A DNA stretch of 64,000 nt from Calothrix sp. NIES-4101. GTDB taxonomy: Bacteria > Cyanobacteriota > Cyanobacteriia > Cyanobacteriales > Nostocaceae. Shown one piece after another: positions 645 through 18,217 of this stretch. Where the stretch lies: assembly GCA_004296455.1 (NCBI GenBank), contig AP018280.1, positions 3,224,001 to 3,288,000 on the forward strand, given 5' to 3'. The notes below the pieces were generated by a model. The model was not told where the DNA came from, did not search any database, and was given only the letters and a program-made list of their open reading frames with translations. The number at the start of each line of letters is the position of its first letter. Position 1 is the first letter of the stretch. The translations under genes were made by a program, and so were the position numbers.

Positions 645-677
645 CTTCACATTTTCCTCACAATTAATCAATAAAGT
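645..677 (+). promoter_or_regulatory. Shared promoter motif, site 1 (upstream of uspA)
   Basis: CTTCACATTTTCCTCACA at 645-662 contains two half-sites (CTTCACA and CCTCACA) 11 nt apart. Exactly 11 nt after CCTCA comes a -10-like TAAAGT at 672-677. The site points toward the UspA gene, whose start is 143 nt after position 662. Five more sites with the same sequence and the same spacing to a TANNNT box occur in the window. Confidence 0.7.
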
Positions 678-805
678 AAAAATAAAGCGATCGCTAACAG
701 GATGCCATATGTACAACTATATTTCTAAATCTAGGTTACATCGCTTAGTAATGTAGTTTAAATAAAGCGGCTCATCAAACTTATATTAATTGTTGGGGAA
801 GGGTT

Positions 806-1330
806 ATGAAATACAAAAAAATTCTAGTTGCTATGGATAATTCCCTCCAAGCTGCAAAAGTTTTTCAAGCAGCATTAGATATTGCTCAAAAATGTGGAAG
901 TAAGCTAATGTTATTTAATTGCATCAATAGCTACTTTCTGGATGAGTCAGCTATCTCGATTGGTACAATGGCAGATGTTGATATTTATGGGACTCTCCAA
1001 CAGCAACACAGGCAAAATTTACAGCAAGAAACCGCAAAAATCCAGGCTTGGTTAGAAGCTTACTGTCAACAAGCTAACCTTCGGAAAGTTGAGGCAGAAT
1101 ATACTTATAAATTCGGTGAAGCTAGTAAAGAAATTTGTAATTTTGCAAAAACTTGGAATGCAGATTTAATTGTATTAGGTCGTAGAGGGCATAAAGGTAT
1201 TACAGAAATTTTGCTGGGTAGTGTTAGCAATTATATTCTCCATAATGCTCCTTGTACAGTACTGGTTGTCCAAGAAAAGGTATTTCCAAAAGAAGAAAAA
1301 CAGGTTCATGCCACAACAGCCGCATATTAG
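806..1330 (+). CDS. Universal stress protein, UspA family
   Basis: A single Usp domain of 174 residues. The N-terminus has the family strand and Asp (KILVAMDNS), and the C-terminal half has the ATP-binding pattern G-x2-G-x9-G-(S/T) in GRRGHKGITEILLGS followed by a hydrophobic strand ending VLVVQ. Usp proteins are cytoplasmic nucleotide-binding proteins made under stress or starvation; the exact target is usually unknown. The presence of the ATP motif suggests the nucleotide-binding class. It stands alone in its transcription unit, behind promoter site 1 at 645-677, and converges on ftsH with a hairpin between them. A second Usp gene lies at 7362. The extra tail of about 20 charged residues after the domain is ordinary variation. 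Confidence 0.9.
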   Translation: MKYKKILVAMDNSLQAAKVFQAALDIAQKCGSKLMLFNCINSYFLDESAISIGTMADVDIYGTLQQQHRQNLQQETAKIQAWLEAYCQQANLRKVEAEYTYKFGEASKEICNFAKTWNADLIVLGRRGHKGITEILLGSVSNYILHNAPCTVLVVQEKVFPKEEKQVHATTAAY

Positions 1331-1351
1331 TAAATATTCATACCAGTATTT

Positions 1352-1382
1352 ATATCCTCGACTTTTTATAAGCCGGGGATAT
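1352..1382. terminator. Palindrome between convergent genes, member of the ATATCCCCGACTT repeat family
   Basis: ATATCCTCGACTT pairs with AAGCCGGGGATAT across a 5-nt loop, with one G-U pair and one mismatch. It lies between convergent uspA and ftsH, where a bidirectional terminator is expected. Near-copies of the same arm occur at 5192-5224 and 17272-17306, so this is a dispersed palindromic repeat that may also serve as a terminator. Confidence 0.55.
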
Positions 1383-1414
1383 TAAAATATGGTGCGGTTA
1401 AGTAAAAATGGCTA

Positions 1415-3355
1415 TTAGCTTTTAGAATAAATTAACGTATTTACTTCTGTAAACTTACCAGTACGCAACCACTGATGCATATTTTGAGGTAATTGAACTT
1501 GAAGAAGATAACTACGTAATTCCTCTCCTTCTAATACTTCTTTTTCCAAGAGAATCTCAGCAACTTCTTGTAACAGTTCCTGATTATCCTGAAGTATGAC
1601 TAACGCTAATTGATGGGCTCCATCAATGATTCCCTTCACTTCTTGGTCGATTTGTTCAGCTATTTTTTCACTAATTGCTCGTCGCGGATTAGTTAAATTA
1701 TTTAAAAATTGCTGTTGAATTTTCTCAAATGCAACAGGTCCTAATTTGGCACTCATTCCATACAGAGTCACAAATCTCTCAGCTAAATCAGTTGCTTTTT
1801 GAATATCATCGCTCGCACCCGTGGAAATGATTCCGAACATCAACTCTTCTGCTGCACGTCCACCTAATAATGTGACAATGCGTCCGCGAATTTCATCTTC
1901 AGTCATCAAAAAGCGGTCTTCTTCTGGTAATTGTAACGTATAACCTAAAGCCGCAATTCCACGGGGAACAATGGATATTTTTTCAACATTACCCGCACCA
2001 GGAGTAATTGCCCCAATAATTGCATGACCAACTTCATGATAGGCAACAGTCTTTTTCTCTACCTCATTGAGAACACGAGATTTTTTCTCTAAACCAGTTA
2101 ATACCCGTTCGACTGCTTCGTTTAAATCCTGCATCGTCACTGCATCGTGGTTTTCCCTAGCAGCTAAAAGCGCAGCTTCATTCACCAAGTTAGCTAAATC
2201 AGCACCTGCAAATCCAGGAGTTCTGGCTGCTAGCTTCGCTAAATCTACATCTTTGCCAAGTTTGACATTTTTAGCATGAATTTTGAGAATCGCTTCCCGA
2301 CCAATTTTATCCGGTCTATCAACAGCAATCTGCCGATCAAAACGTCCCGGACGCAGTAATGCTGGGTCTAAAACTTCAGGGCGGTTGGTAGCTGCCAAAA
2401 TAATCACACCCGTGTTTGTCTCAAAACCATCCATTTCCGAAAGTAATTGGTTGAGGGTTTGTTCCCGTTCATCATTCCCACCGAGCATATTCCCAAACCC
2501 TTCCCGTGATTTTCCCAAAGCATCCAATTCATCAATAAAAACAATACATGGAGCCTTTTGCTTTGCTTGTTCAAACAAATCCCGTACCCTTGCTGCCCCA
2601 ATTCCCACAAATAACTCAATAAATTCCGAACCAGAAATAGTAAAAAAAGGAACTCCAGCTTCACCCGCGATCGCTTTTGCTAATAATGTTTTCCCAGTTC
2701 CCGGAGGACCAACTAGTAATACACCTTTGGGAATTTTTGCGCCGAGGCGAACATACTTAGTTGCATTTTGTAAAAAATCGACTATTTCCCGCAGTTCGGT
2801 TTTTGCTTCATCGACTCCCGCAACATCATCAAATGTGACACCTGTACTGCCTTCTGCATAAATGCGGGCTTTACTTTTACCAATAGTCAATGCGGCAGGA
2901 CTATCCGTCCCCGAACGATTAAACATAAATCCCAACATGCTGAGGAATATTACAGGAGGTATTACCCAACTTAGTAAAACCCATATCCAAGCTGCACTGT
3001 TGGCAGTAGAGGCTGAATACTCAACTTGATGTGCGCGGAGAATTTTTGGTAGTTCTGTATCGTTGGGAATAGGTGTAGTTAGATAAACTTCTTTAGGTCT
3101 AATTTTTGATTGTTGTGGATTTGCATCTGGTTTGAGTTCGTACCTAATCCTTTCTGCACCAATTTCCGCACGGATAACTTTACCTGCTTCGACTTGAGAA
3201 ACAAAGGTGCTATAAGGAACTCGTTTTTGAGAAGGTTGTGCCCAAAACATCAAATTGATAAATATGAGCATTAACAACCAGAGCAATAAACTACCGCCAA
3301 TCTGTTTGGATTCTGGTTTAGGGATTGGGTTTTTACCATCTGTTTCTACTGGCAT
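1415..3355 (-). CDS. ftsH: ATP-dependent zinc metalloprotease FtsH
   Basis: A 646-residue membrane AAA+ protease that extracts and degrades membrane and soluble proteins. Two N-terminal membrane segments (about 22-39 and 121-145) flank a periplasmic or lumenal loop. Walker A is GPPGTGKT (216-223), Walker B is VFIDE (272-276), the second region of homology ends GRFDRQ (338-342), and the zinc site is HEVGH (440-444) with downstream acidic ligands near 516. HEVGH replaces the more usual HEAGH and keeps all ligands. The start is backed by GAGGAG 9 nt upstream. It is the last gene of a minus-strand run HtrA-like protease, hydrolase, FtsH, so a protein-quality-control operon is likely. Cyanobacteria usually have about four FtsH paralogues; which one this is cannot be said from the window. 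Confidence 0.96.
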
Positions 3356-3400
3356 AGTTCATTACTCCTCGTTAATTTTGCATTGAAATCCGAGATTTAT

Positions 3401-4150
3401 TTAGTGATGATTAATTTGTAGAGATGCTGCGGAAGTATATGTGCTTGACTGGCTGGGATGAGACATATCTGTAGTAGGCGATCGCAAATGACGCTTAAAC
3501 CATTGATTTGCTAATCTGGCAACTTCTTCTAATGCACCAGGCTCGTGAAATTGATGGGTTGCTTGCGGAATAATTTCTAACTTTTTGTTATTACTAGGAA
3601 TTTGATTGAAGGCATCTTCATTCATTGTAATTGTTGGATAATCATCACCACCAACTATTAATAATGTGGGCGTATGTAGGTAAGATAGTGCCGGACTAAA
3701 TAAATCTGTTCGTCCTCCTCTGGAAACAACTGCACCAACAGACATGGGACGCTCAGTTGCTGCCAGTAAGGCGGCTCCTCCATTTTCACTGGCACCAAAG
3801 TAACCAATATTGAGATGTTGGGTAATCGGGTTCAGCATCAACCAATCGGTAATTCCCACCAGTCGCGAGGCTAAGTGTCTAATATCATATCGAAAATGCT
3901 TGCTGCGACAATCGAGAGTTGCTTCTTCTTCCGTCAGTAGGTTAATTAAGATTGTGGCTAGTCCTGCTTGACGTAAAAGGTGAGCAAAGTATCGTAATCT
4001 GTAACTATATTTAATACTGCCAGATGTTTCTGGAATAACTATAATTCCGGCAGCATCTTCGGGAATCACTAATTCACCTTCTAGTTTGGCTGTTCCCACT
4101 TGAATAGTTAATATTTTTTCTTCAATGTTAAAGGCAAGTTTCTTATACAT
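3401..4150 (-). CDS. Alpha/beta hydrolase, dienelactone-hydrolase-like
   Basis: A 249-residue protein with the alpha/beta-hydrolase layout: nucleophile elbow G-A-S121-E-N-G, an acidic stretch GGDDY near 168-171 after a central strand, and a candidate catalytic His in ATHQFHEPG (199 or 202). Proteins of this type are often annotated as dienelactone hydrolases or phosphoribosyltransferase-fused hydrolases; the substrate is unknown. I chose the ATG at 4150 (MYKKLAF) because GGAG lies 7 nt upstream; the frame is open 11 codons further, to 4183, without a better site. It lies between the HtrA-like protease and ftsH, all on the minus strand with short gaps, so the three genes are probably cotranscribed from site 2 at 5418-5450. 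Confidence 0.8.
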   Translation of the reverse strand: MYKKLAFNIEEKILTIQVGTAKLEGELVIPEDAAGIIVIPETSGSIKYSYRLRYFAHLLRQAGLATILINLLTEEEATLDCRSKHFRYDIRHLASRLVGITDWLMLNPITQHLNIGYFGASENGGAALLAATERPMSVGAVVSRGGRTDLFSPALSYLHTPTLLIVGGDDYPTITMNEDAFNQIPSNNKKLEIIPQATHQFHEPGALEEVARLANQWFKRHLRSPTTDMSHPSQSSTYTSAASLQINHH

Positions 4151-4214
4151 TCTCATTCTCCAACTGCAATCATCATTTACCAAATTAGATAATCTTAACT
4201 AATGGAAAAATTAT

Positions 4215-5123
4215 CTAAGATTGAGCAATACTTTCACTGTCTACAAGTTTATCCTTGGCAGCAAAAAACTTCTCAATCGGAATTACTAACCCAATCGTTT
4301 CTCTATTAGATTTCACTATAGTATTAATCCCAATTAGTTGACCATTTTGATTGATTAATGCACCTCCGGAGTTGGCTTTATTAATTACAGCATCCGTTTG
4401 AATCCATTGCAATTTCTGACTCAATGTAGCAGCATTAGAATATTTTAAAGAACTCACAATCCCCACAGAAACCATTTGCTCACGTCCCAGAGGATTACCA
4501 ATACTAATTACCCAATCTCCCAACTGCAAATCTTGCGATTTCCCAAATGATGCAGTGGTGAGGTTATTCGCATTAATTTTTACGGTTGCTAAATCTGATT
4601 CCTGATCAATTCCTAATAAAGTCCCTGAAAACTCACTTCCATCTTTCAAAGTTACTTTGATATTTCCTGCTCCATTAACAATATGAGCATTAGTTAAAAT
4701 CACACCATCCCTACTAATAACTATACCGGAACCTTCGCCATTATAATGAAACTGAGGAATTTCTACTGATTTTCCATTACCAAAAAAGCCTTCAAAGGAT
4801 GGGTCATTAAATATAGGTGGTATCGGAATTTTCAAAGTGCGATCGCTATCTATTTTCACAACTGCTGGTGCAACTTTATTGATGGCTGTGACTATAAAGT
4901 TATGTTCTCCTTGCGAGAGTTGCATAACTTGAGATTTACTATTTGTATCTGTTGAGGCGATTTTTTGAGGATTTTCGTAAATATCCTGGGGAATAAATTT
5001 TGTGGGGAATAATCGTATTGCCGCTAATGCTAAGGTTCCACCTAATATAGCTGTAATAATATAAGCAGCAATTGGAGGGTGCAAATTAACCGTATTTTTA
5101 TCGGACGGATATGAAGATGTCAT
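4215..5123 (-). CDS. HtrA/HhoA-like trypsin-type serine protease without PDZ domain
   Basis: A 302-residue protein with an N-terminal membrane anchor (about residues 16-36) and a trypsin-fold domain with an intact triad: His147 in LTNAHIV, Asp177 in ESDLATV and Ser252 in KANSGGALI. The frame is open upstream to 5477, but the ATG at 5123 is preceded by AAGAGGTG at proper distance and begins directly before the membrane anchor, so it is taken as the start. Family members usually carry one or two PDZ domains after the protease domain; here the protein ends about 20 residues after the protease fold, so no PDZ domain is present and this looks like the native end. It would act in the periplasm or lumen on damaged proteins. 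It heads the operon with the hydrolase and ftsH. Confidence 0.88.
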   Translation of the reverse strand: MTSSYPSDKNTVNLHPPIAAYIITAILGGTLALAAIRLFPTKFIPQDIYENPQKIASTDTNSKSQVMQLSQGEHNFIVTAINKVAPAVVKIDSDRTLKIPIPPIFNDPSFEGFFGNGKSVEIPQFHYNGEGSGIVISRDGVILTNAHIVNGAGNIKVTLKDGSEFSGTLLGIDQESDLATVKINANNLTTASFGKSQDLQLGDWVISIGNPLGREQMVSVGIVSSLKYSNAATLSQKLQWIQTDAVINKANSGGALINQNGQLIGINTIVKSNRETIGLVIPIEKFFAAKDKLVDSESIAQS

Positions 5124-5191
5124 ATTACACCTCTTGATTTGATAAATATAAACATGAAAATATAGAAAGTTTATATCCCTGGCTTTCTTTG

Positions 5192-5224
5192 ATATCCCCG
5201 ACTTAATTTCATAAATCAGGGACA
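5192..5224. repeat. Palindromic repeat, ATATCCCCGACTT family
   Basis: ATATCCCCGACTTAA faces an imperfect complement ending in ATCAGGGAC about 12 nt later. The left arm matches the repeats at 1352-1382 and 17272-17306. Here it lies in the leader between promoter site 2 and the protease start, so it could form a hairpin in the mRNA leader. Confidence 0.5.
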
Positions 5225-5417
5225 CAGGTTTTCTATTTTGTGTATAGTTTTCCCACCTGCAATGTCTCGGAACGATTGCCAACGATTCAGCCTCATACTT
5301 GTTGTTCCTCTCCAAATGTTTGTCAGTCCTAAATGCAAACTCCCCTCCGCTCAGGCTTGTGCTGATTAAAGCAAGCAAAACTGAACTTGATAAAGTCACT
5401 CTATGGACTCTACCTTC

Positions 5418-5450
5418 AGGATATAAAAAAATATTGAGGAAGTTGTGAAG
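5418..5450 (-). promoter_or_regulatory. Shared promoter motif, site 2 (upstream of HtrA-like/hydrolase/ftsH)
   Basis: On the minus strand CTTCACAACTTCCTCAAT (5450 to 5433) is followed, 11 nt after CCTCA, by TATCCT (5423 to 5418). It points at the protease gene, about 310 nt downstream, leaving a long leader. Confidence 0.7.
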
Positions 5451-5634
5451 ATGGTATTGAAACTTAGTTTCATTCATCAGCTAATCTATACAAGTTAATA
5501 TTCAAGAGGATTTAAAAGTATTGTTGCTTGCTCAACAGATAGGCAAAATTGATTCAAGTTGAAGTAATCAAATGCCGGGAGTACCTTGATAGGTTGGCTT
5601 TTTGTTAAAATTTCATAGCTAGTTGCTAATAGCT

Positions 5635-5757
5635 AGATACCTAGCAATACGGTTCGGTTAAAGGGAAAAGGGACAAGGGAAAAAACGTAAAAACAAGACT
5701 TACACCCGACAATTTTCTTTCATTTTTTGCTTATCCGAACCGTATTGAGATACCTAG
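5635..5757. mobile_element. MITE of 103 bp with 17-bp inverted ends and 10-bp target duplication
   Basis: The element spans 5645-5747. Its ends are CAATACGGTTCGGTTAA and, read on the other strand, CAATACGGTTCGGATAA: 16 of 17 identical. It is flanked by perfect direct repeats AGATACCTAG (5635-5644 and 5748-5757), a clean target-site duplication. There is no room for a transposase, so it must have been moved in trans. The 10-bp duplication fits IS4-type enzymes, but the ends do not match the IS4-like element at 36.6 kb. Confidence 0.85.
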
Positions 5758-6057
5758 AGCATAGCTATAAAAATCCTCAATTATTTGCAAAAATATTCGG
5801 CTCTTCGGCAAGTTTTATGGAGCTTGAGGTTTTTTTGCAGTAAAACCCTTACAAAACAATGATTACAAGCAACTATGATACTTTTTGAGGCTAAATTCCT
5901 ATGTAATAAGGCTTTCAAGGATTTTTAGCTAAGTTTTCCATAAAAAGAACTGAAGAGCCAAATATTCTTTGTAGCCTGGATATTTTGGATATATTTTTAA
6001 ACATCTCATAATCTTGACAGAAAACCTCCACATAAGTTCGATATTGTCAAGTGATTA

Positions 6058-6090
6058 CCTCACAAAATCCTCATATTTTGTGACTATATT
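6058..6090 (+). promoter_or_regulatory. Shared promoter motif, site 3 (upstream of flavoprotein/Usp/ATPase block)
   Basis: CCTCACAAAATCCTCATA (6058-6075) is followed 11 nt after CCTCA by TATATT (6085-6090). It is about 206 nt before the flavoprotein start. This copy also contains a perfect inverted repeat, TCACAAAAT-N6-ATTTTGTGA (6060-6083), which the other sites lack. Confidence 0.7.
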
Positions 6091-6281: not shown

Positions 6282-7319
6282 ATGAACTTAACAACAAGAT
6301 ACATGGGATTAAGCTTAAAGTCACCACTTGTTCCTTCTGCGTCTCCCCTATCTGAAGATATAGATAATATGAGACGGATGGAAGATGCTGGTGCTAGTGC
6401 AATTGTCATGCATTCGCTATTTGAAGAGCAATTTATGGATGATGAAGGGGTTAAATTCAATCACCATCCAATGACTCATAACAGTGATAAAAATTCATTT
6501 ACTCTCAACTATCAGCCCGAATCAATCAGATTTAGAGTTGATCCTCAAGAGTATCTCAATCATATCCGCAAGGCAAAAGCAATAGTTGATATTCCCATCA
6601 TTGCGAGTCTGAATGGTACATCGCTGGGAGGTTGGACAAATTATGCACGACTAATAGAATTAGCGGGTGCAGATGCCCTGGAGTTAAATATTTATAACGT
6701 ACCTACCGATATGAGTTTGACAGGTACACAACTCGAACAAAATTACATCGACATTCTTGATGCAGTCAAAAGTGTTGTCTCAATTCCTGTCGCCGTTAAA
6801 CTCAGTCCATATTTTACGAATATGGCAAATATGGCAAAACGTTTGGATGATGCAGGTGCTAATGCATTAGTCCTATTTAACCGTTTTTATCAACCAGATA
6901 TTAACTTGAAGAAATTACAAGTTGAGCCGAATATTATTTTGAGCGAACCCCAAGCAAAGCGTTTACCAATGCGTTGGATTGCAATTTTGTATGGTCAAAT
7001 TTATGCAAATTTAGCAGCTACAAGCGGTATTCATAAAGGTCATGATGTGGTAAAAATGCTTTTGGCTGGTGCTGATGTCACCATGATTTGTTCGGCTTTG
7101 TTGTTACATGGAATTGATTATCTACGAACCATTGAAAGTGAGCTTTGTGAATGGATGGATAAGCATGAATTTGCATCTGTGGAAGGAATGAAGGGTATTT
7201 TAAGTCAAAAAAATTGTGCAAATCCAAGTGCCTTTGAACGGGTTCAATATATGCGTAGCTTGTCTATATATAAACCGGAATGGGCACATACTCAAGATAC
7301 ATCTTACTACTTTGGTTGA
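6282..7319 (+). CDS. Dihydroorotate dehydrogenase-like flavoprotein
   Basis: A 345-residue FMN-barrel protein of the dihydroorotate-dehydrogenase-like group. It opens with the family's phosphate and pyrimidine-site stretch (LKSPLVPSASPLSED), has the SLNG strand near residue 109, a Lys-containing strand in VAVKLSP, and a C-terminal phosphate-binding part (ATSGIHKGHDVVKMLLAGADV). It is longer and diverged from biosynthetic PyrD, and many such proteins in anaerobes and cyanobacteria are of unproven substrate, so pyrimidine synthesis should not be assumed. The start follows AGGAG by 9 nt. It is followed after 42 bp by a Usp gene and then a P-type ATPase, suggesting a shared transcript from site 3. 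Confidence 0.85.
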   Translation: MNLTTRYMGLSLKSPLVPSASPLSEDIDNMRRMEDAGASAIVMHSLFEEQFMDDEGVKFNHHPMTHNSDKNSFTLNYQPESIRFRVDPQEYLNHIRKAKAIVDIPIIASLNGTSLGGWTNYARLIELAGADALELNIYNVPTDMSLTGTQLEQNYIDILDAVKSVVSIPVAVKLSPYFTNMANMAKRLDDAGANALVLFNRFYQPDINLKKLQVEPNIILSEPQAKRLPMRWIAILYGQIYANLAATSGIHKGHDVVKMLLAGADVTMICSALLLHGIDYLRTIESELCEWMDKHEFASVEGMKGILSQKNCANPSAFERVQYMRSLSIYKPEWAHTQDTSYYFG

Positions 7320-7361
7320 ACTCAAAAATATGATATCAACAGTGTAGCAGTGGGGTAAAAA

Positions 7362-7790
7362 ATGAGTTGGTTACAAAAGCAGTGTGTTCTGGTTCCAAAT
7401 GACTTTTCAGATGCTTCTTTTGAAGCGCTATTTCCAGCACGAGCATTCGTGAAGGATGTCTCTAACTTATATGTGCTTCACGTTATTACTCCAGTTTATG
7501 CTGTTGAAGTAGGAATGTTGTCCGAACAATTTGATGATGAGACACGCAAGAAAAAGTTTAGAGAAGCTATTTTGAGAAAGCTGCAAAATACAGAATTTGA
7601 GAATGTGAATATCCAAGTAATAATTGGAGACCCTAGTTCAGAAATAATTGATTATGCCAAAGAAATTCATGCTGATTTAATCGTCATACCTTCTGAAGGG
7701 CGCACAGGATTCAGTCGATTTTTGATTGGTTCTGTTGCTGAGAGAGTAGTTCGCTTTGCCCATTGTCCTGTTCTGGTTTTGAAGAAATAA
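7362..7790 (+). CDS. Universal stress protein, UspA family
   Basis: A 142-residue single-domain Usp. It has the N-terminal strand ending in VPNDFS and the ATP-binding pattern in EGRTGFSRFLIGSVAERVV, followed by the terminal strand CPVLVLKK. The length is typical. It sits 42 bp behind the flavoprotein gene and before the cation ATPase, all on the plus strand. Compared with the Usp at 806 it lacks the insert in the first half, so the two are paralogues rather than a recent duplication. Its role is probably stress-related nucleotide sensing; no target can be read from the sequence. Confidence 0.9.
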   Translation: MSWLQKQCVLVPNDFSDASFEALFPARAFVKDVSNLYVLHVITPVYAVEVGMLSEQFDDETRKKKFREAILRKLQNTEFENVNIQVIIGDPSSEIIDYAKEIHADLIVIPSEGRTGFSRFLIGSVAERVVRFAHCPVLVLKK

Positions 7791-7966: not shown

Positions 7967-10948
7967 GTGGTTCAAGCAATACATACTACTATCAAAGGTA
8001 GAGGTAGATATAAAGTTGATGGTCTCTATTTTCAAGAATCATTCAAGGAGTATCTTGAACTATCGATTACAGTAATGCCAGAGGTAATTTCTGTTGGTGC
8101 TAGCACATTAACTAGTAATATTTTGGTCATTTTTAACCCTGATATCAGCCATGCTTACATCCAGCAACTCATTGATAGAATAGTTTTAGATTATCAACAG
8201 CCGCCGAAGAAGTCTCAGCCCAAAAAAGTGTCTAAAATAGTAAGTAATTCGAGTCAAATTGTAGCCCCACTTGAAAATCAAAAAATAGAAGATTGGCATC
8301 TCATTGAAGCTAATGCTGTTGTCCAGTCTTTAAACTCCTCAAAAACTTTCGGCTTATCACACGAATCTGCTTTAGAAAATCTCCAAAAATATGGAAAAAA
8401 CCGTTTACCTGAGTCAGCATCGCGTTCTGAACTCAGTATTTTTGTTGAGCAGTTCAAATCCCTGCCTGTAGCCCTCTTAACTGGTGCTGCCGTGCTGTCA
8501 ACCGCAACAGGTGGCTGGATTGATGCTTTGGTAATTATGGGGGTTGTAGGCATTAATGCTGTGATTGGCTATTTTACGGAAAGTCAGTCGGAAAAAATTA
8601 TCCATTCCCTGAAAAAACGCGATCGCCCATTAACTGTAGTTGTCAGAAATGGTAATATTACCGAGATAAATACCGAAGATATTGTCCCCGGAGATATTCT
8701 CATTCTCAAGCCGGGTAGCTATGTCTCCGCAGATGCCAGATTGATTGAGACGGAAAATTTGAGTGTCGATGAATCCGCATTGACTGGTGAAAGTATACCA
8801 GTAAACAAAACTATTAAATCCCTTTGTAGTGAAAATATTCCCCTAGTAGACCGAATAAACATGGTATACAAAGGTACTCTTGTCACTGGTGGGCAAGGTA
8901 TTGCTGTAGTCACGGGAACGGGTAAATTTACGGAATTGGGTCACATTCAACAACTAGTAGGAGAAGCCAGTGTCACCGATACTCCTTTGGCAAAACAGTT
9001 GGATAAAGTTGGTAGCCAATTGGTAATCCTTAGTAGTGCTATCTGCGGAGTTGTGTTTCTGATTGGATTACTCCGGGGCTATCCTTGGTTAGTAATGTTG
9101 ACAACATCCATATCCCTGGCTGTCGCCGCAGTACCAGAGGGTTTACCAACAGTTGCCACAACTACCCTGGCTTTGGGAATTCGCGATATGCGCCAACACC
9201 AAGTCCTAGTTCGCAGTTTGAATGCTGTCGAAGCGCTGGGTTCGGTACAGAAAATTTGCTTGGACAAAACCGGGACAATTACCGAAAACCGCATGTCGGT
9301 TGTGGAAGTACATGCTGATTCCCAAGTAATTCAGGTATGTGATAGTGAATTTAGTCATGGAGACAAACTATTTTATCCCTACAGTTGCAAAGAACTGATT
9401 CAATTGATGCATATAGTGGTTCTTTGTAATGAAAGTGATGTAGTGCAACAGTCAGATGGCGAATATGCAGTTAATGGTTCCGCCACCGAAAATGCTTTAA
9501 TATATATGGCGATCGCAGCTGGGGTGGATGTAATTAGTCTGCGGGAAAAATACCCCCTCCAAGGGATTAACCAGCGCTCAGAAAATCGTAATATTATGAG
9601 TAGCCTTCATGGTACTTGCGACGAACAGATATTAGTTGCGGTGAAAGGAAGACCAACCGAAATTCTCCAACTCTGTAATTGGCGGATGCAGGCAGGAGAA
9701 ATAGTTCCCCTGACAGAAGAGGATAAACTAGCAATTGAATTAGAAAATGAGCGAATGGCGGGTAAAGCATTACGTGTACTGGCGGCAGCTTATACCCATG
9801 TACATAGTGATAAAAGCAGAGAAAATACTGAACGAAATTTAACTTGGTTAGGCTTAGTGGGGATGACAGACCCAGTTAGAAAAGGCGTTAAAGAGTTAAT
9901 GGGTCAATTTCATCAAGCAGGAATTGATACAGTCATGATTACAGGTGATCAAACTCCCACCGCATTTGCGATCGCCAAAGAATTAGAATTAGCTAACCAC
10001 AACCAACTACAAATCCTCGATGCTACAGACATGCTCAGTATTAATTCTGAGGCAAAAATAGCACTTTTTGACAAAGTAAATGTTTTCGCCCGGATTAGTC
10101 CCGCCAATAAACTCCAGATTGTCCAAGCATTACAGTCAGCAGGGCGAGTAGTAGCCATGACTGGTGATGGTATCAATGATGCCCCTGCCTTGAAGGCAGC
10201 GCAAGTAGGTGTGGCGATGGGTAACGGGGGAACAGATGCCGCGCGGGAGGTTGCAGATATCATCCTTGCCGATGATAACTTGGAAACCATGATTATTGCG
10301 GTGAGTCGGGGACGAACTATCTACAACAACATCAGAAAATCTGTACATTTTCTTCTCTCTACTAACCTCAGCGAAATCATGGTGATGTTAGCAGCAACAG
10401 CAATTGGTGTCGGACAACCGTTAAATGCAATTCAACTGCTGTGGTTGAACCTAGTTACAGATATCTTTCCTGGTTTAGCACTCGCATTAGAACCAAGCGA
10501 ACCGGATGTATTGAGCAAACCACCCCGCAATCCTGACGAAGCAATAGTTAAAACCTCAGATTTTGGCAACATTGCTTTTGAGTCTGGCAGTATATCCTTG
10601 AGTACTTTGGCAGCCTATGGTTATGGTATTAGTAAATATGGTGTCGGCACCCAAGCAAGTACCATTGCTTTTATGAGTTTAACTGTTGGACAACTTCTTC
10701 ATGCCCTTAGTTGTCGATCGCAAAAATATACCATCTTTGATATTGGCAAACTACCACAAAATCAATATTTAAATATCGCTATCTTTGGTTCCATCGGCTT
10801 GCAACTACTTTCCTTGGGGGTTCCCGGATTGCGAATGTTGTTAAGTTTAACCCCGATAAATCTTGCCGATAGTATTGTCATTAGTAGCAGCGCATTTTTA
10901 CCTTTGCTAATAAATGAAACCAGAAAAAAATTAAGTGCAGATAGGTAA
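7967..10948 (+). CDS. P-type cation-transporting ATPase, type II, with N-terminal HMA-like domain
   Basis: A 993-residue pump. Translation starts at GTG 7967, with GAGGAGG six nt upstream. The first 80 or so residues look like a small HMA-type ferredoxin fold without the metal-binding CxxC; a linker and the cation-ATPase N domain follow. The membrane core has PEGLP in the M4 segment, as in Ca2+ and Na+/K+ type II pumps, the phosphorylation motif DKTGT with Asp433, and the hinge [11 protein letters not shown] near 733. The C-terminal six-helix part is present ([23 protein letters not shown]). The ion is unknown; PEGLP argues for Ca2+, Na+ or another light cation rather than copper. The next gene, a divergent metK, begins only 6 nt after the stop. 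A second type II pump without this N-terminal domain is encoded at 40425. Confidence 0.9.
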
Positions 10949-10954
10949 GAAAAT

Positions 10955-12148
10955 ATGAAAAAAGATTTTTTGTTTACTTCGGAATCTGTAACCGAAGGAC
11001 ATCCAGATAAACTTTGCGACAAAATCAGTGATGCAATTGTAGACCGTTTTTTGCTCCAAGACCCCTATGCGAGAATTATTACAGAATGTGCCGTGTCTAC
11101 AGGTATTGTTTTCCTAGCAGCCAGATTTGAACCAAATGCGAATGTGGATTTTACAAATATAGCCAGACAAGTAATCGATAAAGTTGGCTATAATCGAGCA
11201 GATTTTAATGGGAAAACCTGTAGTATTTTAACTAGTTTACAAGAATTACCACCCGCTAGCATTCATAACTTTGCAGAAACTGATGAAAAAAAATTATCCG
11301 ACGCAGAAATTGAGCAAATTACCGTTAGGGATCAAGTTACAGTATTTGGATTTGCTTGCAAGCAAACCCCGATTTTGATGCCTTTACCTATTTATTTAGC
11401 CCATAAATTAGCAAGGCAATTGAGCGAGGTAAAATTGCAAAAAAAACTCAATTATTTATCGCCTGATGGTAAAACTCAAGTTGGAATTGAATATAAAAAT
11501 CATAAACCATACAGAATTAACGGTATTTCCATTATCGCCAGTCAAAATAGTTGGGAAAAGCCGAATTTTCAGGAACTTGATGATGATATCCGCGAAGCCG
11601 TAATTAAACCTGTCTTTTTACACGAAGACATCCAACCAGACAAAAACACGAGAATTTTTATTGACTTTGACGAACCATTTAATGTTGGTGGCCCTTCCAT
11701 TCATTCTGGCTTAACAGGTCGCAAAAATGCTATTGATACCTATGGAGAATATTCCCGACATAGTGGTGCAGCCTTAAGTGGCAAAGACCCCAGTAGAATA
11801 GATAGAATCGGAGCCTATGCTGCCCGTTATGCCGCGAAAAACATTGTCGCCGCCGATATAGCAGATGAATGCGAAGTGCAACTTAGCTATTCAATTGGAT
11901 GTGCCAGACCTTTGAGTATTCAAGTCGAAACCTTTGGGACTGGGAGAATATCTGATGAAGAAATTACAAAAATACTGGAAAAACATTTTGATTTCCGTTT
12001 AGCAGGAATTATCAAACAATTCAATTTGAGATTTTTACCTTCCCTACATAAAGGTAGTTTTTATGAAAAATTAGCAACCTACGGTCATGTAGGGAGGACA
12101 GATATGAGTTTACCGTGGGAAGTCACAGATAAGGTTGGTGTTTTTTAG
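10955..12148 (+). CDS. S-adenosylmethionine synthetase-like protein, divergent paralogue
   Basis: A 397-residue protein aligned to MetK over its full length: FTSESVTEGHPDK at the start, a Lys in DGKTQV, GLTGRK, SGKDPSRIDR and a C-terminal PWEVTDK. Several positions almost invariant in biosynthetic MetK differ: the GAGDQG loop reads TVRDQV, and GGPMGDCGLTGRK reads GGPSIHSGLTGRK, replacing an active-site Asp (E. coli Asp238) by His. Conserved Lys and Asp residues of the phosphate and metal sites remain. I infer an enzyme of the MAT fold with altered methionine-side binding or altered regulation, not the housekeeping MetK. It is tightly linked to the ATPase gene (6-nt gap), which is an unusual place for metK. 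I leave the symbol empty because activity is uncertain. Confidence 0.85.
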   Translation: MKKDFLFTSESVTEGHPDKLCDKISDAIVDRFLLQDPYARIITECAVSTGIVFLAARFEPNANVDFTNIARQVIDKVGYNRADFNGKTCSILTSLQELPPASIHNFAETDEKKLSDAEIEQITVRDQVTVFGFACKQTPILMPLPIYLAHKLARQLSEVKLQKKLNYLSPDGKTQVGIEYKNHKPYRINGISIIASQNSWEKPNFQELDDDIREAVIKPVFLHEDIQPDKNTRIFIDFDEPFNVGGPSIHSGLTGRKNAIDTYGEYSRHSGAALSGKDPSRIDRIGAYAARYAAKNIVAADIADECEVQLSYSIGCARPLSIQVETFGTGRISDEEITKILEKHFDFRLAGIIKQFNLRFLPSLHKGSFYEKLATYGHVGRTDMSLPWEVTDKVGVF

Positions 12149-12758: not shown

Positions 12759-12779
12759 CATCGCAGTTACCCATCCCTC

Positions 12780-12989
12780 TTGTTCGTAAGTTGTATTAGA
12801 TGTGCCATCCTTGACGCTACAAAGGACGTAATAAAGCGGCTACATCCTTTTATGACTGCCTTCTTCAATCTGGAAATGACGGAGGCGAACTGTACAGGAG
12901 AACTGGTAGAATACGATCGCAGTCCGATAATTTTTAACCAGCCGAAACTAGAAGTTACTTACCAATATGTTAAGGGTAGTTTTGGCTAG
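12780..12989 (+). CDS. Small open reading frame of unknown nature
   Basis: A 69-codon frame after the VapC remnant. It has no recognisable domain and no ribosome-binding site, and it may be a decayed fragment (the last part KLEVTYQYVKGSFG reads like the end of a real protein). It is listed only to account for the sequence between the toxin remnant and the GCS2 gene. Confidence 0.15.
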   Translation: MFVSCIRCAILDATKDVIKRLHPFMTAFFNLEMTEANCTGELVEYDRSPIIFNQPKLEVTYQYVKGSFG

Positions 12990-13050
12990 TAGTTTAGCAA
13001 AGCGAGCTTGCAGAGAGCAAAATCTGCCAGCCAAGTTCAACCCACAAATT

Positions 13051-14400
13051 TTAGTTTGGCGAACCAGTACTAGTAGGACTAAGGGAAGGAGGAAAGATAA
13101 AAACATCTTTGCGATCTAGCAATGATAATTCCTGTTCTAATTTATCGCAGGCATCACGCACCAAACGCAAACCCTCTTCTTGTGAAAGTTCGGCAACTGT
13201 GGGACTAAACTTTTGGAGAATTTCCGTTTCGATAGTTGTGTAATTGTCTAATTTCTCCCTCATTTCTAGCAAGTATTTACCTTCTTTGGTACCATCGATA
13301 ATGGCAAACTCCAAAATTGAATCGAGATAACTCTTGACTTTTGGATGCTTGACTCCCTCAGTAGCAGCAGCATAGAGCAAGTCACCATTTAAATACTCAA
13401 AATCTGGAACCCAAAGAGATTGCCCATCTAGCTCAAATACTTGCAGTCCTTTTGCTGGTCGAACTTTTAATTTTTCATAACGGACTCGACGAGCCGCATT
13501 TTCAATCAGTAGTATTACTGCTAAAGTTACCGATGGATAGTTACTATCTATGCATCTAATTTCCACCGTGCCCAATTTATTTAGTCTGACAGGGTTCCAT
13601 GCAGATTTGAGCAGACTTCCTCCGGCATCGAAGAAGAGATGACGCTCTACCCCTGCTTTATCCATTGCTTCCAACCAAGCATAAAAACGGGCAAATTGCT
13701 GTTCTACCAAGCCTTCAACGCAATGTGCATAAGGCATTAACCCACCAACTGGCTGTAAATGGGTGTAAACTCCCTCCCAGCCAAATTTTTCGCTTCCTCG
13801 GTAACGAATTGTGTGGGAAGCTAAACCAATTGCTTGACCTTCATAAAAAGGACATGCCCTTGCTAAAGATATCAATGCTGAATCTAGAGCAGTCGCGAGG
13901 TTATAGATATTTAACAACTCTTCCTGCTCAGGGATAGTTGAGTTGTAAGATACAGCAACGCGATCGCTAATTACTCCTGGTGATACTTCTAAATGGATGT
14001 GGGTGCCTGTACATTTGCCGGCGTGTAAAAATCTCTCATAACCAACAGTCCGGGCTTGAATGTGATAATTTAACTTGTCGCGGATAACTGGCATAATATG
14101 CAAGGGGTAACTAGAAAGGGGATAAAGCCGCAAACCCATTTTTTTCCCCGCAGTCACGGCAATTTTGAGGTTTTGCAGATATTCCCTGGCTAATTCCATC
14201 CCAGACTTACATGGAGGAGTGTTAATTTCCACCATACTTTTGACAAATTCCGTGACAAAATATTCTGGACTACGATTATTCTCCACAGCAACTTCATGAC
14301 AACAGTGCAAAAACTCATCAGCACTTTCAGTCAATGCACCAGTTTCATCGACGATAAAAAACTCTTGTTCTAAGCCAATGCGACGTTTGAGAAAATTCAT
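13051..14400 (-). CDS. GCS2-family carboxylate-amine ligase (glutamate-cysteine ligase-like)
   Basis: A 449-residue member of the glutamate-cysteine ligase type 2 / YbdK family. It starts with the family's ATP-site stretch (RRIGLEQEFFIVD) and has the acidic metal-binding run VKSMVEINTPP near residues 53-63 and a GTHIHLEVS motif near 132. These enzymes join an amino group to a gamma-carboxylate using ATP; glutamate plus cysteine is the classic reaction, but many relatives use other substrates. It is longer than the cyanobacterial GshA, so I do not name it gshA. AGGGGG precedes the start. It follows the acyl-CoA-synthetase/GNAT gene on the same strand with a gap of 64 bp and probably belongs to the same transcript. 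Confidence 0.8.
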   Translation of the reverse strand: MNFLKRRIGLEQEFFIVDETGALTESADEFLHCCHEVAVENNRSPEYFVTEFVKSMVEINTPPCKSGMELAREYLQNLKIAVTAGKKMGLRLYPLSSYPLHIMPVIRDKLNYHIQARTVGYERFLHAGKCTGTHIHLEVSPGVISDRVAVSYNSTIPEQEELLNIYNLATALDSALISLARACPFYEGQAIGLASHTIRYRGSEKFGWEGVYTHLQPVGGLMPYAHCVEGLVEQQFARFYAWLEAMDKAGVERHLFFDAGGSLLKSAWNPVRLNKLGTVEIRCIDSNYPSVTLAVILLIENAARRVRYEKLKVRPAKGLQVFELDGQSLWVPDFEYLNGDLLYAAATEGVKHPKVKSYLDSILEFAIIDGTKEGKYLLEMREKLDNYTTIETEILQKFSPTVAELSQEEGLRLVRDACDKLEQELSLLDRKDVFIFPPSLSPTSTGSPN

Positions 14401-14464
14401 ATATACCCCCTCTCGACTTGTTTGCTTAATTTGGTAGAATTACATTGCCACCAGTTTTCCCTCA

Positions 14465-17227
14465 TCATCGATTCTCAATTTCCGCCTTCACTACACTAAC
14501 TTCATCTGTATGATGGATGCGAAAACCCAATTTTTCACAAACTTTTTGCATTGCATAATTATCAGCCAGAATATCGGCTGTAATTTTAGTAATTTGCTCA
14601 TCAACACTAACTTGGATTAACCTACGTAATAACTCCGTTCCCAAACCCAGACATTGATAGCGATCGCTCACAACAATTGCAAATTCTGCTACCTTCAATG
14701 CATGTAATTTACTTAATCTCCCCACTGCTAATATTTCCCCTGCACATGTTTGCGGGTGTTTCAACTCTGCAATCAGTGCCATCTCGCGGTCATAATCTAT
14801 ACAACACATACGTGTCAAACGTTCATGGGCAACTCGCTGACTTAATTTAATCAGGTGGAAATAGCGGAAATAAACGCTTTCCTCCGATAATGTTTTGTGA
14901 AATTGCACCATCAAGGGTTCATCTTCGGGGCGGATGGGACGAATTGTCACCTGGGTGTTATTTTTCATCGTCCATTGTCCGACATATTGACTGGGATAAG
15001 GACGAATCGCTAGCCTGGGTAAATCCTCTTCGCGTATGTTTGCATCGTGGAGAATAATCCGCGCATCCAGTGCCAGAAAACTCTCCGCAGAAGCTAGCAA
15101 AGGGTTAATATCAATTTCCCGAATCCAACGTTGTTCAGCAACTAATTGACTAAATACCACCATTAATTGTTCGAGAGCAGCCATATTAACACTTTTATTG
15201 CCGCGAACACCCTGAAGCGCCTTGTAAATTTGGGTTTGTTCCATCATCCGTCGTGCTAAAGTTGCATTGAGAGGCGGAAGTGCGATCGCGCGATCGTGAA
15301 ATACTTCTACTAACTGTCCCCCAGCACCAAATAGCAACACTGCACCAAACTGGGAATCGATAGTGCTACCAATAATCAATTCATAACCATGCATTTTCAC
15401 CATTGGTTGCACAGTCACACCCAAAAAATTCTCCCTACCAGCCTTCTGACTCACCGATGCGGCAATATGACGATAGGCTTGACGTACTCCTTCCCCATCC
15501 TGGATATTTAGCTGGACACCGCCAACGTCAGTTTTATGGGTAATTGTCTGCGAAAACAGCTTGACAACTACTGGAAAACCGATTTTTTCAGCACATGCAA
15601 CAGCTTCATCTTCACTGGTAGCAACTGCCGTCGCCACAATCGGAATCCCGTAAGCTGCTAAAATTTGTTTTGATTCCAACTCCGTGAGAATAGTTCGCCC
15701 TGCTTGTCTGGCAGCAGCAATTATTTGTTTCACAACAGCCTGCCCATTCTCAGCATCCCATTCCCGATTTCCTAAAGCTGGAGTTTCGTAAATTCCTCTG
15801 AGGTTGTAGTTGTAACGCCACATATGGGTAAATACACGTGCAGCTTCATCAGGATAAGGATAAGTTGGAATCCGGTTGCGATTGAGAATTGCTTGACCTG
15901 CCGTTACCTCTGCTCCCCCCATCCAACTCGCAAAAATCGGCTTACTTTGCAACGCTTTGATTTTCGCCACCGAGTTTTTTAACTCCTCGGCAGTTTGAGT
16001 TGGGTTTGTCATTGCTTGTGGAGTTAAAATTACCAACAAACCATCACTATTGACATCATTGGCAATCACCTCAAGTGTTTTTGCATACCTTTGGGGGTCA
16101 GCATCACCCAGAATATCAATCGGGTTGCTGTGGCTCCAATGTAGTGGCAGGAATTGGTTGAGGGATGTACGAGTCTCTTCTGAGACAGGTGCTAATTCGC
16201 CCCCCGTAGCCATGAGGGCATCAGTCGCCAGAACCCCAGGACCACCTGCATTTGTGATAATTGTCAGTCGTGAACCTTGAGGAAGGGGTTGTTTTGCCAA
16301 AACCTCCGCCATATCAAACAAGTCTGCAATACTCTCAACCCGCAATACCCCACACCGCCGGAAAGCCGCATCCAGAACCTCATCACTACCAGTAAGTGCC
16401 CCCGTGTGGGAATTTGCCGCCTGGGCTGCGGCTTCAGTCCGCCCAGCTTTAATCACAATAATTGGTTTCGTTAATGCCACTTCCCGCGCTGCTGAGAGAA
16501 ACGATCGCGCATCACCAATCGACTCCATGTAAATCACAATACTTTGTGTCTGCGGGTCATCACCAAGATAGTAAATTAAATCTCCCCAGCCCACATCTAG
16601 CATGGAACCAATGGACACAAAAGCACTAAAACCGACATTCTCCTGAAAACTCCAATCGAGAATCGCCGTACAAAGCGCACCACTTTGACTAATAAAAGCG
16701 ACATTCCCGGGACGAGCCACAGCACTCGCAAAAGTTGCATTCAAACCGATACGCGGACTCATCACACCCAAGCAATTAGGCCCAATGATTCGCAGATTGC
16801 CGCGACGAGCCTGTTGTAAAATTTCCCGTTCTAACTCCGCACCCTCAACACCAGATTCTTTAAAACCAGCACTGAGAATAATTGCTCCCTTGACTCCAAA
16901 ATCAACACAGTCACTGATAATTTGGGGAACTGTTGCTGCTGGTGTGGCAATAATTGCTAAATCAACTGATTCGGGGACAGCAGAAATATTTGGATAAGCT
17001 TTGATACCTAATATACTGTGTCGCTTCGGATTTACAGGGTAAACGGTTCCACCAAAAGGATTGCTAATCAAATTCCATAGCACCGTGCGTCCCACACTAC
17101 CAGTTTTTTCGCTCGCACCAATCACCGCAACACTCTTCGGCGTAAAGATGGCATCAAGGGGATTGAGACTCTCAGTTCGCAAGATATCATAAGCGCGATC
17201 GATAATTGGTTCCACAGGCTTAGGCAT
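14465..17227 (-). CDS. Acetyl-CoA synthetase (ADP-forming)-like protein fused to GNAT acetyltransferase
   Basis: About 920 residues in the domain order of Pat/PatZ-type protein lysine acetyltransferases: CoA-binding Rossmann domain ([15 protein letters not shown]), succinyl-CoA-ligase-like domain with [11 protein letters not shown] near residue 273, ATP-grasp domain ([25 protein letters not shown]...HKTDVGGV), and a C-terminal GNAT domain from about 740 ([14 protein letters not shown]...[11 protein letters not shown]). The His that is phosphorylated in active ADP-forming synthetases is kept. Such proteins acetylate metabolic enzymes such as acetyl-CoA synthetase in response to acetyl-CoA. The ATG at 17227 has AAGG 9 nt upstream; an upstream TTG at 17236 is the alternative. 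It follows hypA by 84 bp, with a palindromic repeat in the gap. Confidence 0.88.
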
Positions 17228-17271
17228 GGTTTGCAACCTTTTTTGGATGGCTTTTAAGATTGAGATTATTA

Positions 17272-17306
17272 ATATCCCCGACTTCTACCCTAGGAGAAAT
17301 CGGGAT
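17272..17306. repeat. Palindromic repeat, ATATCCCCGACTT family
   Basis: AATATCCCCGACTTCT faces AGAAATCGGGATTT across a short loop. It is the third copy of the palindrome family in the window and lies between hypA and the acetyltransferase gene, where it may attenuate or separate the two cistrons. Confidence 0.6.
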
Positions 17307-17311
17307 TTGAT

Positions 17312-17653
17312 TTAGGAAACAGCTAAAGTTGCTAATTCCAATTCTTTACCATGCCGTATCTCGCAATAGGGTTGTTGGCATTCCGGGCATTGATACAGTG
17401 AATTAATCGGCTTAAACTCAATATTACAATTAGAACAGTAACAAACTGTGGGCACATAGTTAATCTGGAGTTGTGCCATTTCCGCAATAGTCCCTTGTTT
17501 GACGACATCAAAGGCTTGCTCTAACGACTCCTTCGCCACATCAGCAGCCTCACCCAGGCGCATTTCCACCAGATAAATGTGATGAGCACCTTCTTGGGTA
17601 GCACGTTCCACAGCAGAGTCTAAAATATTTCGCATTAATCCAATTTCATGCAT
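17312..17653 (-). CDS. hypA: Hydrogenase nickel incorporation protein HypA
   Basis: A 113-residue HypA with the N-terminal nickel-binding MHE and a zinc site built from two CxxC motifs (Cys73/76 and Cys89/92). HypA delivers nickel to the hydrogenase large subunit, usually together with HypB. The start codon overlaps the end of the maturation-protease gene by 19 bp, so the two are translationally coupled. No other hyp gene and no hydrogenase subunit is encoded in this window. Confidence 0.95.
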   Translation of the reverse strand: MHEIGLMRNILDSAVERATQEGAHHIYLVEMRLGEAADVAKESLEQAFDVVKQGTIAEMAQLQINYVPTVCYCSNCNIEFKPINSLYQCPECQQPYCEIRHGKELELATLAVS

Positions 17654-18141
17654 ATATTTGCACCTTTGTCAATAATTTTGTTGATTTTTTCCAGCGCGAT
17701 CGCTACTCCTCTTTCTCCAATTAGTGATAGATTTTCACCCAGTTCAAAATTCACTCCTGGTACTGTCACCAGCCAAGTGGGGGGATAATGACCGTAAATT
17801 GCTTGGGTAAGTGCTAATAGCGATTCAGGATTAGTGATATGTCCGGTGATAATTTTGTTGTTGCTAGGTTCCAGCCAGCGTACTTGGACATCAGGTGGGC
17901 TGTTTTCTAAGTTATTTTCTGAGCTATTTGGCAAACATTGTTGCCAAATTTCCGAACTGATACAAGCATCAACAAAAATCACTAAATCAGCAGCAATTAA
18001 ATTTTCGGTAAGTTCAGGAGTAAGTTGGTGAACAGCAATGGACTTGACGTGAGTTAGATGTAAGCTATTGGCGACTCTTTGCCCAATGCCATCATCACTC
18101 CGTAAGGTATTACCGTAACCAATTACCACTACATTACCCAT
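17635..18141 (-). CDS. Hydrogenase maturation protease (HyaD/HoxW-type)
   Basis: A 168-residue endopeptidase of the type that clips the C-terminus of a [NiFe] hydrogenase large subunit after nickel insertion. It starts GYGNTLRSDDGIG, where the usual nickel-sensing Glu is Asp, and has a second Asp in VIFVDAC and the third ligand His in GHITNPESLL. The ATG at 18141 (MGNVVV) is preferred over the longer frame to 18174 because the Rossmann-like strand begins there. It overlaps hypA and is 44 nt downstream of the -10 of promoter site 4. Its substrate is not in the window; which hydrogenase it serves cannot be told. Confidence 0.88.
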   Translation of the reverse strand: MGNVVVIGYGNTLRSDDGIGQRVANSLHLTHVKSIAVHQLTPELTENLIAADLVIFVDACISSEIWQQCLPNSSENNLENSPPDVQVRWLEPSNNKIITGHITNPESLLALTQAIYGHYPPTWLVTVPGVNFELGENLSLIGERGVAIALEKINKIIDKGANICMKLD

Positions 18142-18184
18142 CGTTGTCAACTTTGTGATTGAGTACAACACCACTTTTACTTAG

Positions 18185-18217
18185 AAGTTAAGCAAAAAAA
18201 ATGAGGAACTTGTGAGG
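18185..18217 (-). promoter_or_regulatory. Shared promoter motif, site 4 (upstream of hydrogenase protease/hypA)
   Basis: On the minus strand CCTCACAAGTTCCTCATT (18217 to 18200) is followed 11 nt after CCTCA by TAACTT (18190 to 18185). The protease start is 58 nt from the motif edge. The IS at 18257 inserted only 40 bp upstream of this site. Confidence 0.7.

Follow-up and report, generated by a model that had tools for sequence, protein, structure and literature searches.

What reads a 16-nucleotide sequence, CYTCACANNNTCCTCA, that stands six times in one 64-kb stretch of the cyanobacterium Calothrix sp. NIES-4101, and what would it be read for? The stretch, which we call the window (64,000 nucleotides, C1:3224001-3288000 of a 7.59-Mb genome from the same family as our comparison genome G174), had been proposed from its letters to hold a six-member promoter class that ties stress genes into one regulon. 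Our analysis suggests instead that these boxes are activator sites of an anoxia (fermentation) regulon, and that a single-chain phosphorelay transcription factor, encoded at C1:4525939-4529358, is the most likely regulator; we give this reading a probability of roughly 70%.

Consider first the element itself. The six exact copies begin at window positions 645+, 5450-, 6058+, 18217-, 60756- and 60893+, and at all six the box TANNNT starts exactly 11 nt past CCTCA, as originally described, while none of 100 dinucleotide-preserving shuffles of the window holds a copy of the 16-mer. The class is sharp: when up to three mismatches are allowed the window yields 37 matches where the shuffles average 25, which places degenerate copies near background. 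The original prediction spoke of two half-sites 11 nt apart; the spacing stands, and the element is better described as an 11-bp unit in direct repeat, CYTCACAAGTT-CCTCAAATTTT, right before the -10 box. This description comes from 197 contexts in our own and related genomes, less than 85% alike and including sites found with the -10 box in the query, whose consensus is TC-C/T-TCACAAGTT-CCTCAAATTTT-N5-TA; the YTCACA, T and CCTCA letters were imposed by the search pattern, and the free columns follow the repeat.

The spacing was also scored on 83 distinct sites found by the 15-mer alone, around the regulator genes discussed below. TA stands at offset 26 in 80 of them and at offsets 25 and 27 in none, the 35 sites with TA at offset 28 arising because TATA is common. 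TANNNT is the main form of the -10 box (47 of the 83) but too narrow as a definition, since TATA[AC] occurs in 32. The TATAA class is frequent ahead of the universal stress protein (Usp) genes that adjoin the regulator, and the two classes of -10 box may set different basal levels. Judged by its position relative to the -10 box, the second repeat unit overlies the -35 region, and a tandem repeat at fixed distance from the -10 box has the geometry of a class II promoter of the OmpR/PhoB type, in agreement with the earlier proposal.

The same class extends over the whole genome, where the 16-mer occurs 25 times against once for the reversed control. TANNNT stands at the expected offset in 20 of these copies, and TATAAC, TATAAG or TATACA in the other 5. 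A pattern that includes the -10 box gives 20 exact matches and 12 with one mismatch, while a pattern one letter shorter gives, with at most one mismatch, 34 matches against 3 for the control. Together with the TA spacing, these counts bear out the claim of one promoter class with a fixed spacing. Nor does the motif occur equally often inside genes: 22 of the 25 sites are uncovered by any open reading frame (ORF) of at least 90 aa, and of the three covered ones, one lies in a stretch of 9 codons by which the target's ORF extends upstream and two lie under opposite-strand ORFs of 100 and 126 aa. Fifteen sites cluster, nine at 3.22-3.29 Mb and six at 4.75-4.82 Mb.

Which genes would such promoters serve? 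Calling the first downstream genes by Pfam and NCBIfam (some of these sites carry one or two mismatches) does not uphold a general stress regulon; the targets appear to be mainly an anoxic fermentation and hydrogen set, accompanied by some protein-maintenance genes. Pyruvate formate-lyase (PFL) follows site 3218939 (1244 bits, cut-off 994), and an EF-G paralogue and then PflA follow site 3212515 (PflA 322 bits, cut-off 232); this second EF-G-type gene (L056:14645-17468) and pflA form a two-gene run under one site. An NrdG/PflA-like radical SAM protein lies behind site 5444527, a HoxF-like protein behind 6142318 (NuoF models under cut-off), a HoxY-like small subunit behind 2865062 (NCBIfam equivalogs under cut-off), and a hydrogenase protease with HypA and acetate-CoA ligase behind 3242185, which is window site 4. 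Oxygen-sensitive fermentation enzymes among the targets are PFL, PflA, the HoxY/HoxF-like proteins, the hydrogenase protease and HypA, all by profile matches. Elsewhere we find PPDK/PEP synthase (site 2276942), 6-phosphofructokinase (4755115), the ribosome hibernation factor HPF (4807516), Hsp20 (4752009) and a second P-type ATPase (2857683), and at the other window sites a dihydroorotate dehydrogenase-like protein with Usp, P-type ATPase and MetK (3230058, site 3), Usp (3224645), a trypsin-like protease with FtsH (3229418) and a GlcD-like oxidase (3284724). Further targets include two pentapeptide proteins and HlyD-like, ParB-like, DUF305 and TPR proteins, among others. Since six of the 30 first genes scanned lack a Pfam match, the fermentation label cannot be given to every target.

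In relatives, the genes behind sites, named by eye, include hoxE-hoxF, nifJ (PFOR), pflA, PPDK, HPF, Hsp20, alcohol dehydrogenase, a psbA copy, protoglobin and a zinc-ribbon peptide. One genome, G005 (L138), has six sites (at most one mismatch) within 16 kb, beside nifJ, hsp20, hoxE/F/U/Y-like, hydrogenase protease and hypAB genes, again by eye. Stand-alone protoglobin genes follow the box in three genomes (L100, L110 and L112, the first confirmed by Pfam at 65 bits) and may give the regulon a second sensor, for oxygen or NO. In G278 and G174 (L107, L211:16396-17466) the gene behind the box is, by eye, a psbA (D1) copy, which in G174 adjoins hoxE/hoxF-like genes; it is possibly a low-oxygen D1 variant.

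Scanning relatives, as the original prediction had suggested, finds 36 carriers of the exact 33-mer among 386 cyanobacterial genomes, and the reversed control has 0 hits in every listed row. Carriers belong mostly to the family of our strain and are scattered in others (f2, f3, f6, f11, f22). With one mismatch, the richest among 72 chosen genomes are G000 with 34 sites (control 3), G174 with 28 (1), G070 with 24 (0), G376 with 22 (1) and G305 with 18 (1), and several genomes of the same family lie near background.

Which protein, then, could read the box? Our genome encodes 14 OmpR-type DNA-binding proteins, which we compared with those of the motif-bearing genomes G233 and G070 and of the motif-poor G051, G284 and G103 (the G070 set being incomplete, with 12 of 20 matches taken as loci, L178 and L187 in the wrong frame, and two more added later). 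Only L084, L085 and L086 are without a counterpart in G284 and G103 (at most 44% identity) and yet have relatives in G233 and G070; L079 has no counterpart in any of the five. The co-occurrence and linkage with the box described next make an L084-type protein the best candidate on present sequence evidence; our own copy (C1:4525939-4529358, minus strand, 1139 aa) lies outside the window.

As for co-occurrence, the DNA-binding and Hpt part of L084 reaches at least 210 bits in 31 of the 386 genomes, and 29 of these 31 hold the exact 33-mer. A tree joins 29 rows in a single clade (support 95/81, on few alignment columns). Counting as clade-positive these 29 rows and G022, itself not on the tree, we find the 33-mer in 28 of 30 positive genomes and in 8 of 356 negative ones (p 4e-33), and within our family alone in 26 of 28 against 2 of 15 (p 3e-7), both values treating genomes as independent and ignoring relatedness. 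G376 was counted as positive via a match on contig C64 (74% identical), and G005, G070 and G118 as negative despite close relatives. In another order G289 has both gene and motif, while its congener G185 lacks sites and offers just a 46% relative of the gene. The co-conserved response regulator that the original prediction proposed to look for has a likely counterpart in the L084 type.

The linkage is physical as well. A site within one mismatch lies in 13 of 28 clade loci of about 3.7 kb each, against 0 for the reversed control. By eye, 12 of the 13 have as their first recognisable gene a Usp gene that diverges from the regulator gene; in the remaining one the zinc-ribbon peptide comes first, with the regulator gene after it on the same strand. 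Beyond the Usp, G051 and G233 show a HoxE-like start. A homologue scan over one genome per species (84,980 species) returned 223 related places, and around the best 80 of these there are 88 sites against 0 for the control in 1.46 Mb, with a site in 51 of the 80 loci. It lies at most 1.5 kb upstream of the DNA-binding domain in 38 of 75 of the best homologue loci. Among 64 loci of all kinds of OmpR proteins from six genomes, taken as a control, just two have a site, and both are of the L084 type.

The candidate's architecture is REC - Trans_reg_C (OmpR/PhoB) - Hpt - REC - PAS - HisKA - HATPase with further REC domains, there being four Response_reg stretches, and the 80 complete ORFs of homologues have a median length of 1305 aa. 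All 29 clade rows share the recognition segment AVRTHIK without change. Among 82 homologues (L366 is probably the same gene as the G305 copy, and a few genomes give two copies) the N-terminal receiver Asp, the receiver Lys and the Hpt His are kept in all, and our own protein has the kinase His, receiver Asp 51 and Hpt His 299. The best PDB matches of the PAS domain are FixL (1e-15) and DosP (4e-15). Its His 579 aligns with a FixL His that we take to be the haem ligand, and 61 of the 62 homologues that carry this PAS have His here; at the position scored as distal, presumably that of the distal Arg of FixL, 54 have Arg and 8 have Gln. In a small control, 12 other PAS hits in the regulon's gene islands, of which 4 did not align there, include no such His/Arg pair.

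How could a signal pass from this protein to the promoter? The binding, the activation, the order of the phosphorelay, the haem and oxygen as the signal are what we infer, and the sequence of events would be as follows. As O2 falls, the FixL/DosP-like haem-PAS would release the kinase, and phosphate would move from the kinase His to a REC Asp, then to the Hpt His and on to the N-terminal REC Asp. Two phosphorylated DNA-binding domains would next occupy the tandem units of CYTCACAAGTT-CCTCAAATTTT, with the second repeat over the -35 region, and the bound dimer would bring RNA polymerase to the -10 box that starts 11 nt past CCTCA, which is class II activation. The signal may be O2, redox or darkness.

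Several observations weigh against this picture. The tree had few alignment columns, the 80 homologues are the best of 223 rather than a random sample, and co-occurrence could partly mirror who ferments, not who regulates. Exact sites occur without a clade member in eight genomes (G005, G070, G118, G072, G127, G195, G336, G354): G005, G070 and G118 have near relatives of the regulator, with the recognition helix identical in G070, in a split 616-aa version, and different at one residue in G005 and G118; G072 has a more distant relative with one helix change, G195 has one with two changes, G127 has no close relative, and G336 and G354 fell outside the comparison. Conversely, the gene is present with no exact site in G068 (5 near-sites, control 1) and G051 (3, control 0). 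Our own regulator gene has no site within the 5.9 kb downstream and 8.6 kb upstream that were searched. At the distal place our own protein has Gln, not Arg, two of the 12 other island PAS hits also have the His, and because this PAS subtype is common the haem stands as a prediction. The kinase His, finally, is found in 64 of the 82 homologues and is absent from the alignment in 18 (16 gaps, 2 Glu), so not all homologues are self-contained kinases.

On autoregulation, no OmpR gene of our genome has a place with up to two mismatches in the 500 nt upstream except L089, whose two-mismatch place, 312 nt away, looks like chance. L089 is an OmpR response regulator which, with a kinase-like neighbour, occupies window positions 32090-34217 without a site, and it has counterparts in motif-poor genomes too.

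Could one or both paralogues of the same subfamily, L085 and L086, bind the boxes instead, perhaps with split island kinases? They share with L084 the lack of counterparts in G284 and G103, and G070, with its 24 near-sites, has several paralogues, one of which (L214:8667-10517) stands beside a site with a CBS-PAS kinase. Their DNA-binding domains, however, are just 53% and 57% identical to that of L084, with different helices (TVKVHIR and TIKSHIK), and the site-linked gene at the examined loci is of the L084 type. We regard this alternative as unlikely.

A second alternative is RpaA, an OmpR-type clock and dark output regulator, in which case the set would be a night regulon and not an oxygen one. 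Its action on primary metabolism and dark responses, as given in the available part of PMC4549654, speaks for it. The rpaA gene, at 4.766 Mb, lies within the second site cluster, and among our OmpR proteins RpaA alone finds a reciprocal best hit in both G233 and G070 and lacks one in the motif-poor G051. In G051 (one contig) no RpaA orthologue was found, the best match being a 41%, RpaB-like protein, while the same-genus G233 has one at 92%. RpaA is weakened after this contrast because it is nearly universal: a match of at least 85% identity and near full length is present in 70 of the 72 chosen genomes, motif-poor ones included (G051 has none and G185 a 91% fragment), and sites occur in far fewer. 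The rpaA gene with 1.5 kb on each side holds no site, and the RpaA motif in strain 7942 is described as A/T-rich in what is available of PMC4549654. We think it quite unlikely that RpaA is the reader.

Still less probable is a regulator of another family (AraC, NarL/LuxR or CRP/FNR), of which one protein, a PAS-HTH_Crp fusion, was compared. TCACA does resemble a CRP half-site, but the motif is an 11-bp direct repeat and not an inverted one. This PAS-HTH_Crp protein is present in several regulon islands, in four genomes of one genus. We rejected it because G000, G174 and G305, among the site-richest genomes, have no match at E <= 1e-30 and genomes without an exact site, such as G199, G251 and G284, do have it. 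The fusion occurs in the fermentation islands of one genus (L127:102-1265 in G042, with homologues in G019, G024 and G340), and full-length matches exist in 25 of 43 genomes of the family, the window's genome not being among them. Although 15 of the 25 sites fall in two genome regions, it is hardly credible that the motif is a repeat or mobile-element end spreading near promoters, as the 197 contexts have little in common beyond repeat and -10 box, sites precede similar genes in different families, and the TA spacing is fixed in 80 of 83.

We also compared the box with published ones. In the part of PMC13421787 available, HLR1 is KTTACAWW-N2-KTTACAWW, Rre1 is GTNCGGK and RppA is AAMAWCTCYYWCCCC. 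All three differ from the site sequence, so the original statement that the box is unlike known ones holds for these, and Rre1/Hik2, RpaB (HLR1) and RppA were rejected as regulators.

A close formal likeness is to the Pho box, in which PhoB meets two 11-bp direct repeats, each with a T/C-rich core and four A/T bases, the second replacing the -35 element about 11 nt before the -10 box. Our element shares the 11-bp direct repeats with their T/C-rich core and four A/T bases, the placing of the second and the distance, and differs in its core (CYTCACA, not CTGTCAT), in its fermentation targets and in a DNA-binding domain that lies inside a hybrid kinase. In enterobacteria, ArcB-ArcA exerts anoxia control with a PAS-kinase, REC and Hpt parts and a DNA-binding protein of the OmpR type that sits on direct repeats. 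The candidate has the same kinds of parts, but in one polypeptide, in another domain order, with a FixL-like PAS and in cyanobacteria. With the haem-PAS O2 sensors FixL-FixJ and DosP it shares the nearest solved PAS structures and, in most homologues, the His and distal Arg positions; unlike them it would signal to an OmpR domain via Hpt, its haem is predicted, and our own protein has Gln at the distal place. ChlR, a low-oxygen regulator of Synechocystis, is not of the OmpR type. The available part of PMC13421787 describes it as Fe-S-based and as controlling chlorophyll and tetrapyrrole genes in Synechocystis. The candidate would likewise be an oxygen-responsive transcription regulator, but an OmpR-type one with a putative haem-PAS and fermentation targets.

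Features of the window that belong to the six sites, with positions counted from the first letter of the window
Feature	Position	Strand	Description
Site 1	645..677	+	repeat CTTCACATTTT-CCTCACAATTA, -10 TAAAGT (672-677); upstream of Usp
3' end of REC-PAS3-HK-REC kinase adjoining site 1	12..611	+	no DNA-binding domain found
Universal stress protein, downstream of site 1	806..1330	+	PF00582, 111 bits
Site 2	5418..5450	-	CTTCACAACTT-CCTCAATATTT, -10 TATCCT; upstream of protease / hydrolase-like / FtsH run
Trypsin-like (HtrA-like) protease	4215..5399	-	PF13365 Trypsin_2, 108 bits; predicted start approximate
Alpha/beta-hydrolase-like protein	3401..4183	-	weak PF12740 match, under its cut-off
FtsH-type AAA protease	1415..3355	-	PF01434 and PF00004
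Site 3	6058..6090	+	CCTCACAAAAT-CCTCATATTTT, -10 TATATT; upstream of dihydroorotate dehydrogenase-like / Usp / P-type ATPase / MetK run
Dihydroorotate dehydrogenase-like protein	6282..7319	+	NF005741, 477 bits, cut-off 303
Universal stress protein	7362..7790	+	PF00582
P-type cation ATPase	7967..10948	+	PF00122, PF00689
S-adenosylmethionine synthetase (MetK)	10955..12148	+	PF02773, PF00438, PF02772
Site 4	18185..18217	-	CCTCACAAGTT-CCTCATTTTTT, -10 TAACTT; upstream of hydrogenase-maturation / acetate-CoA ligase run
Hydrogenase maturation protease	17635..18174	-	TIGR00072, 49.1 bits, cut-off 47.45; no Pfam match at 0.001
HypA nickel chaperone	17312..17653	-	PF01155
ADP-forming type acetate-CoA ligase fused to GNAT acetyltransferase	14465..17236	-	TIGR02717, 569 against 567 (alpha part); PF13549, PF13302
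GCS2 family protein	13051..14400	-	PF04107
Site 5	60724..60756	-	CTTCACAATTT-CCTCAAATTCT, -10 TATATT; upstream of FAD oxidase
GlcD-like FAD-linked oxidase, 272 nt past site 5	58961..60451	-	PF02913, PF01565
Site 6	60893..60925	+	CTTCACAACTT-CCTCACATTTA, -10 TATGGT; upstream of zinc-ribbon-like protein
70-aa CPxC zinc-ribbon-like protein	60990..61202	+	named by eye; no Pfam match

Two of the window's genes turned out differently from what had been supposed. The hybrid sensor kinase beside site 1, noted as cut, is indeed there and is complete in the genome (917 aa, C1:3221858-3224611, L057:6858-9611, REC-PAS3-HK-REC), with PDB matches (1e-12) mostly over its kinase and receiver parts. Lacking a DNA-binding domain, it was rejected as the regulator, for which L084 is the better candidate, and it is possibly a member or partner of the regulon. 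Related kinases sit in regulon islands of four other genomes, at least two of them with N-terminal CBS domains. Site 5 had been linked to a membrane peptide; a putative small peptide lies there, between the site and the GlcD-like oxidase, which is the gene with Pfam support. Look-alikes of the zinc-ribbon-like protein of site 6 were seen by eye behind sites in the relatives' loci L097, L099, L102, L104, L105 and L241.

What would such a circuit mean for cyanobacteria? The switch-on of fermentation and the bidirectional hydrogenase (hox, nifJ) in dark or microoxic conditions has been put down to LexA, AbrB-type proteins (cyAbrB1/2), SigE and Rre34, mostly from work in one model strain, Synechocystis 6803, in the available parts of PMC11368403 and PMC4463661. 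Our proposal overlaps with theirs in these genes and concerns different proteins, and those parts of the two articles contain no direct-repeat box of this kind. None of six forms of the box, 14 to 15 letters long, stands in any of 5.39 million open-licence papers, and no such regulon or regulator appears among the literature matches listed, a scope that leaves subscription journals aside. PhoB-like promoter logic, ArcB-like relay and FixL-like sensing are all known; new would be their combination in one chain for cyanobacterial fermentation.

Now that the box is defined, its targets are listed and a candidate regulator with an oxygen-sensor-like domain is named, the control of fermentation becomes directly testable in other lineages, and the box may offer an anoxia-inducible promoter class for hydrogen work. 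More generally, and here we would put the odds at about even, heterocyst-forming cyanobacteria and a few distant lineages may possess a one-protein oxygen-to-promoter circuit that acts through an undescribed 11-bp tandem box and, as master switch, takes the cell out of oxygenic metabolism and into dark fermentation and hydrogen production. If this is true, a sensor (the FixL-like haem-PAS kinase), an Asp-His-Asp relay and a PhoB-like DNA-binding domain would be joined in a single chain.

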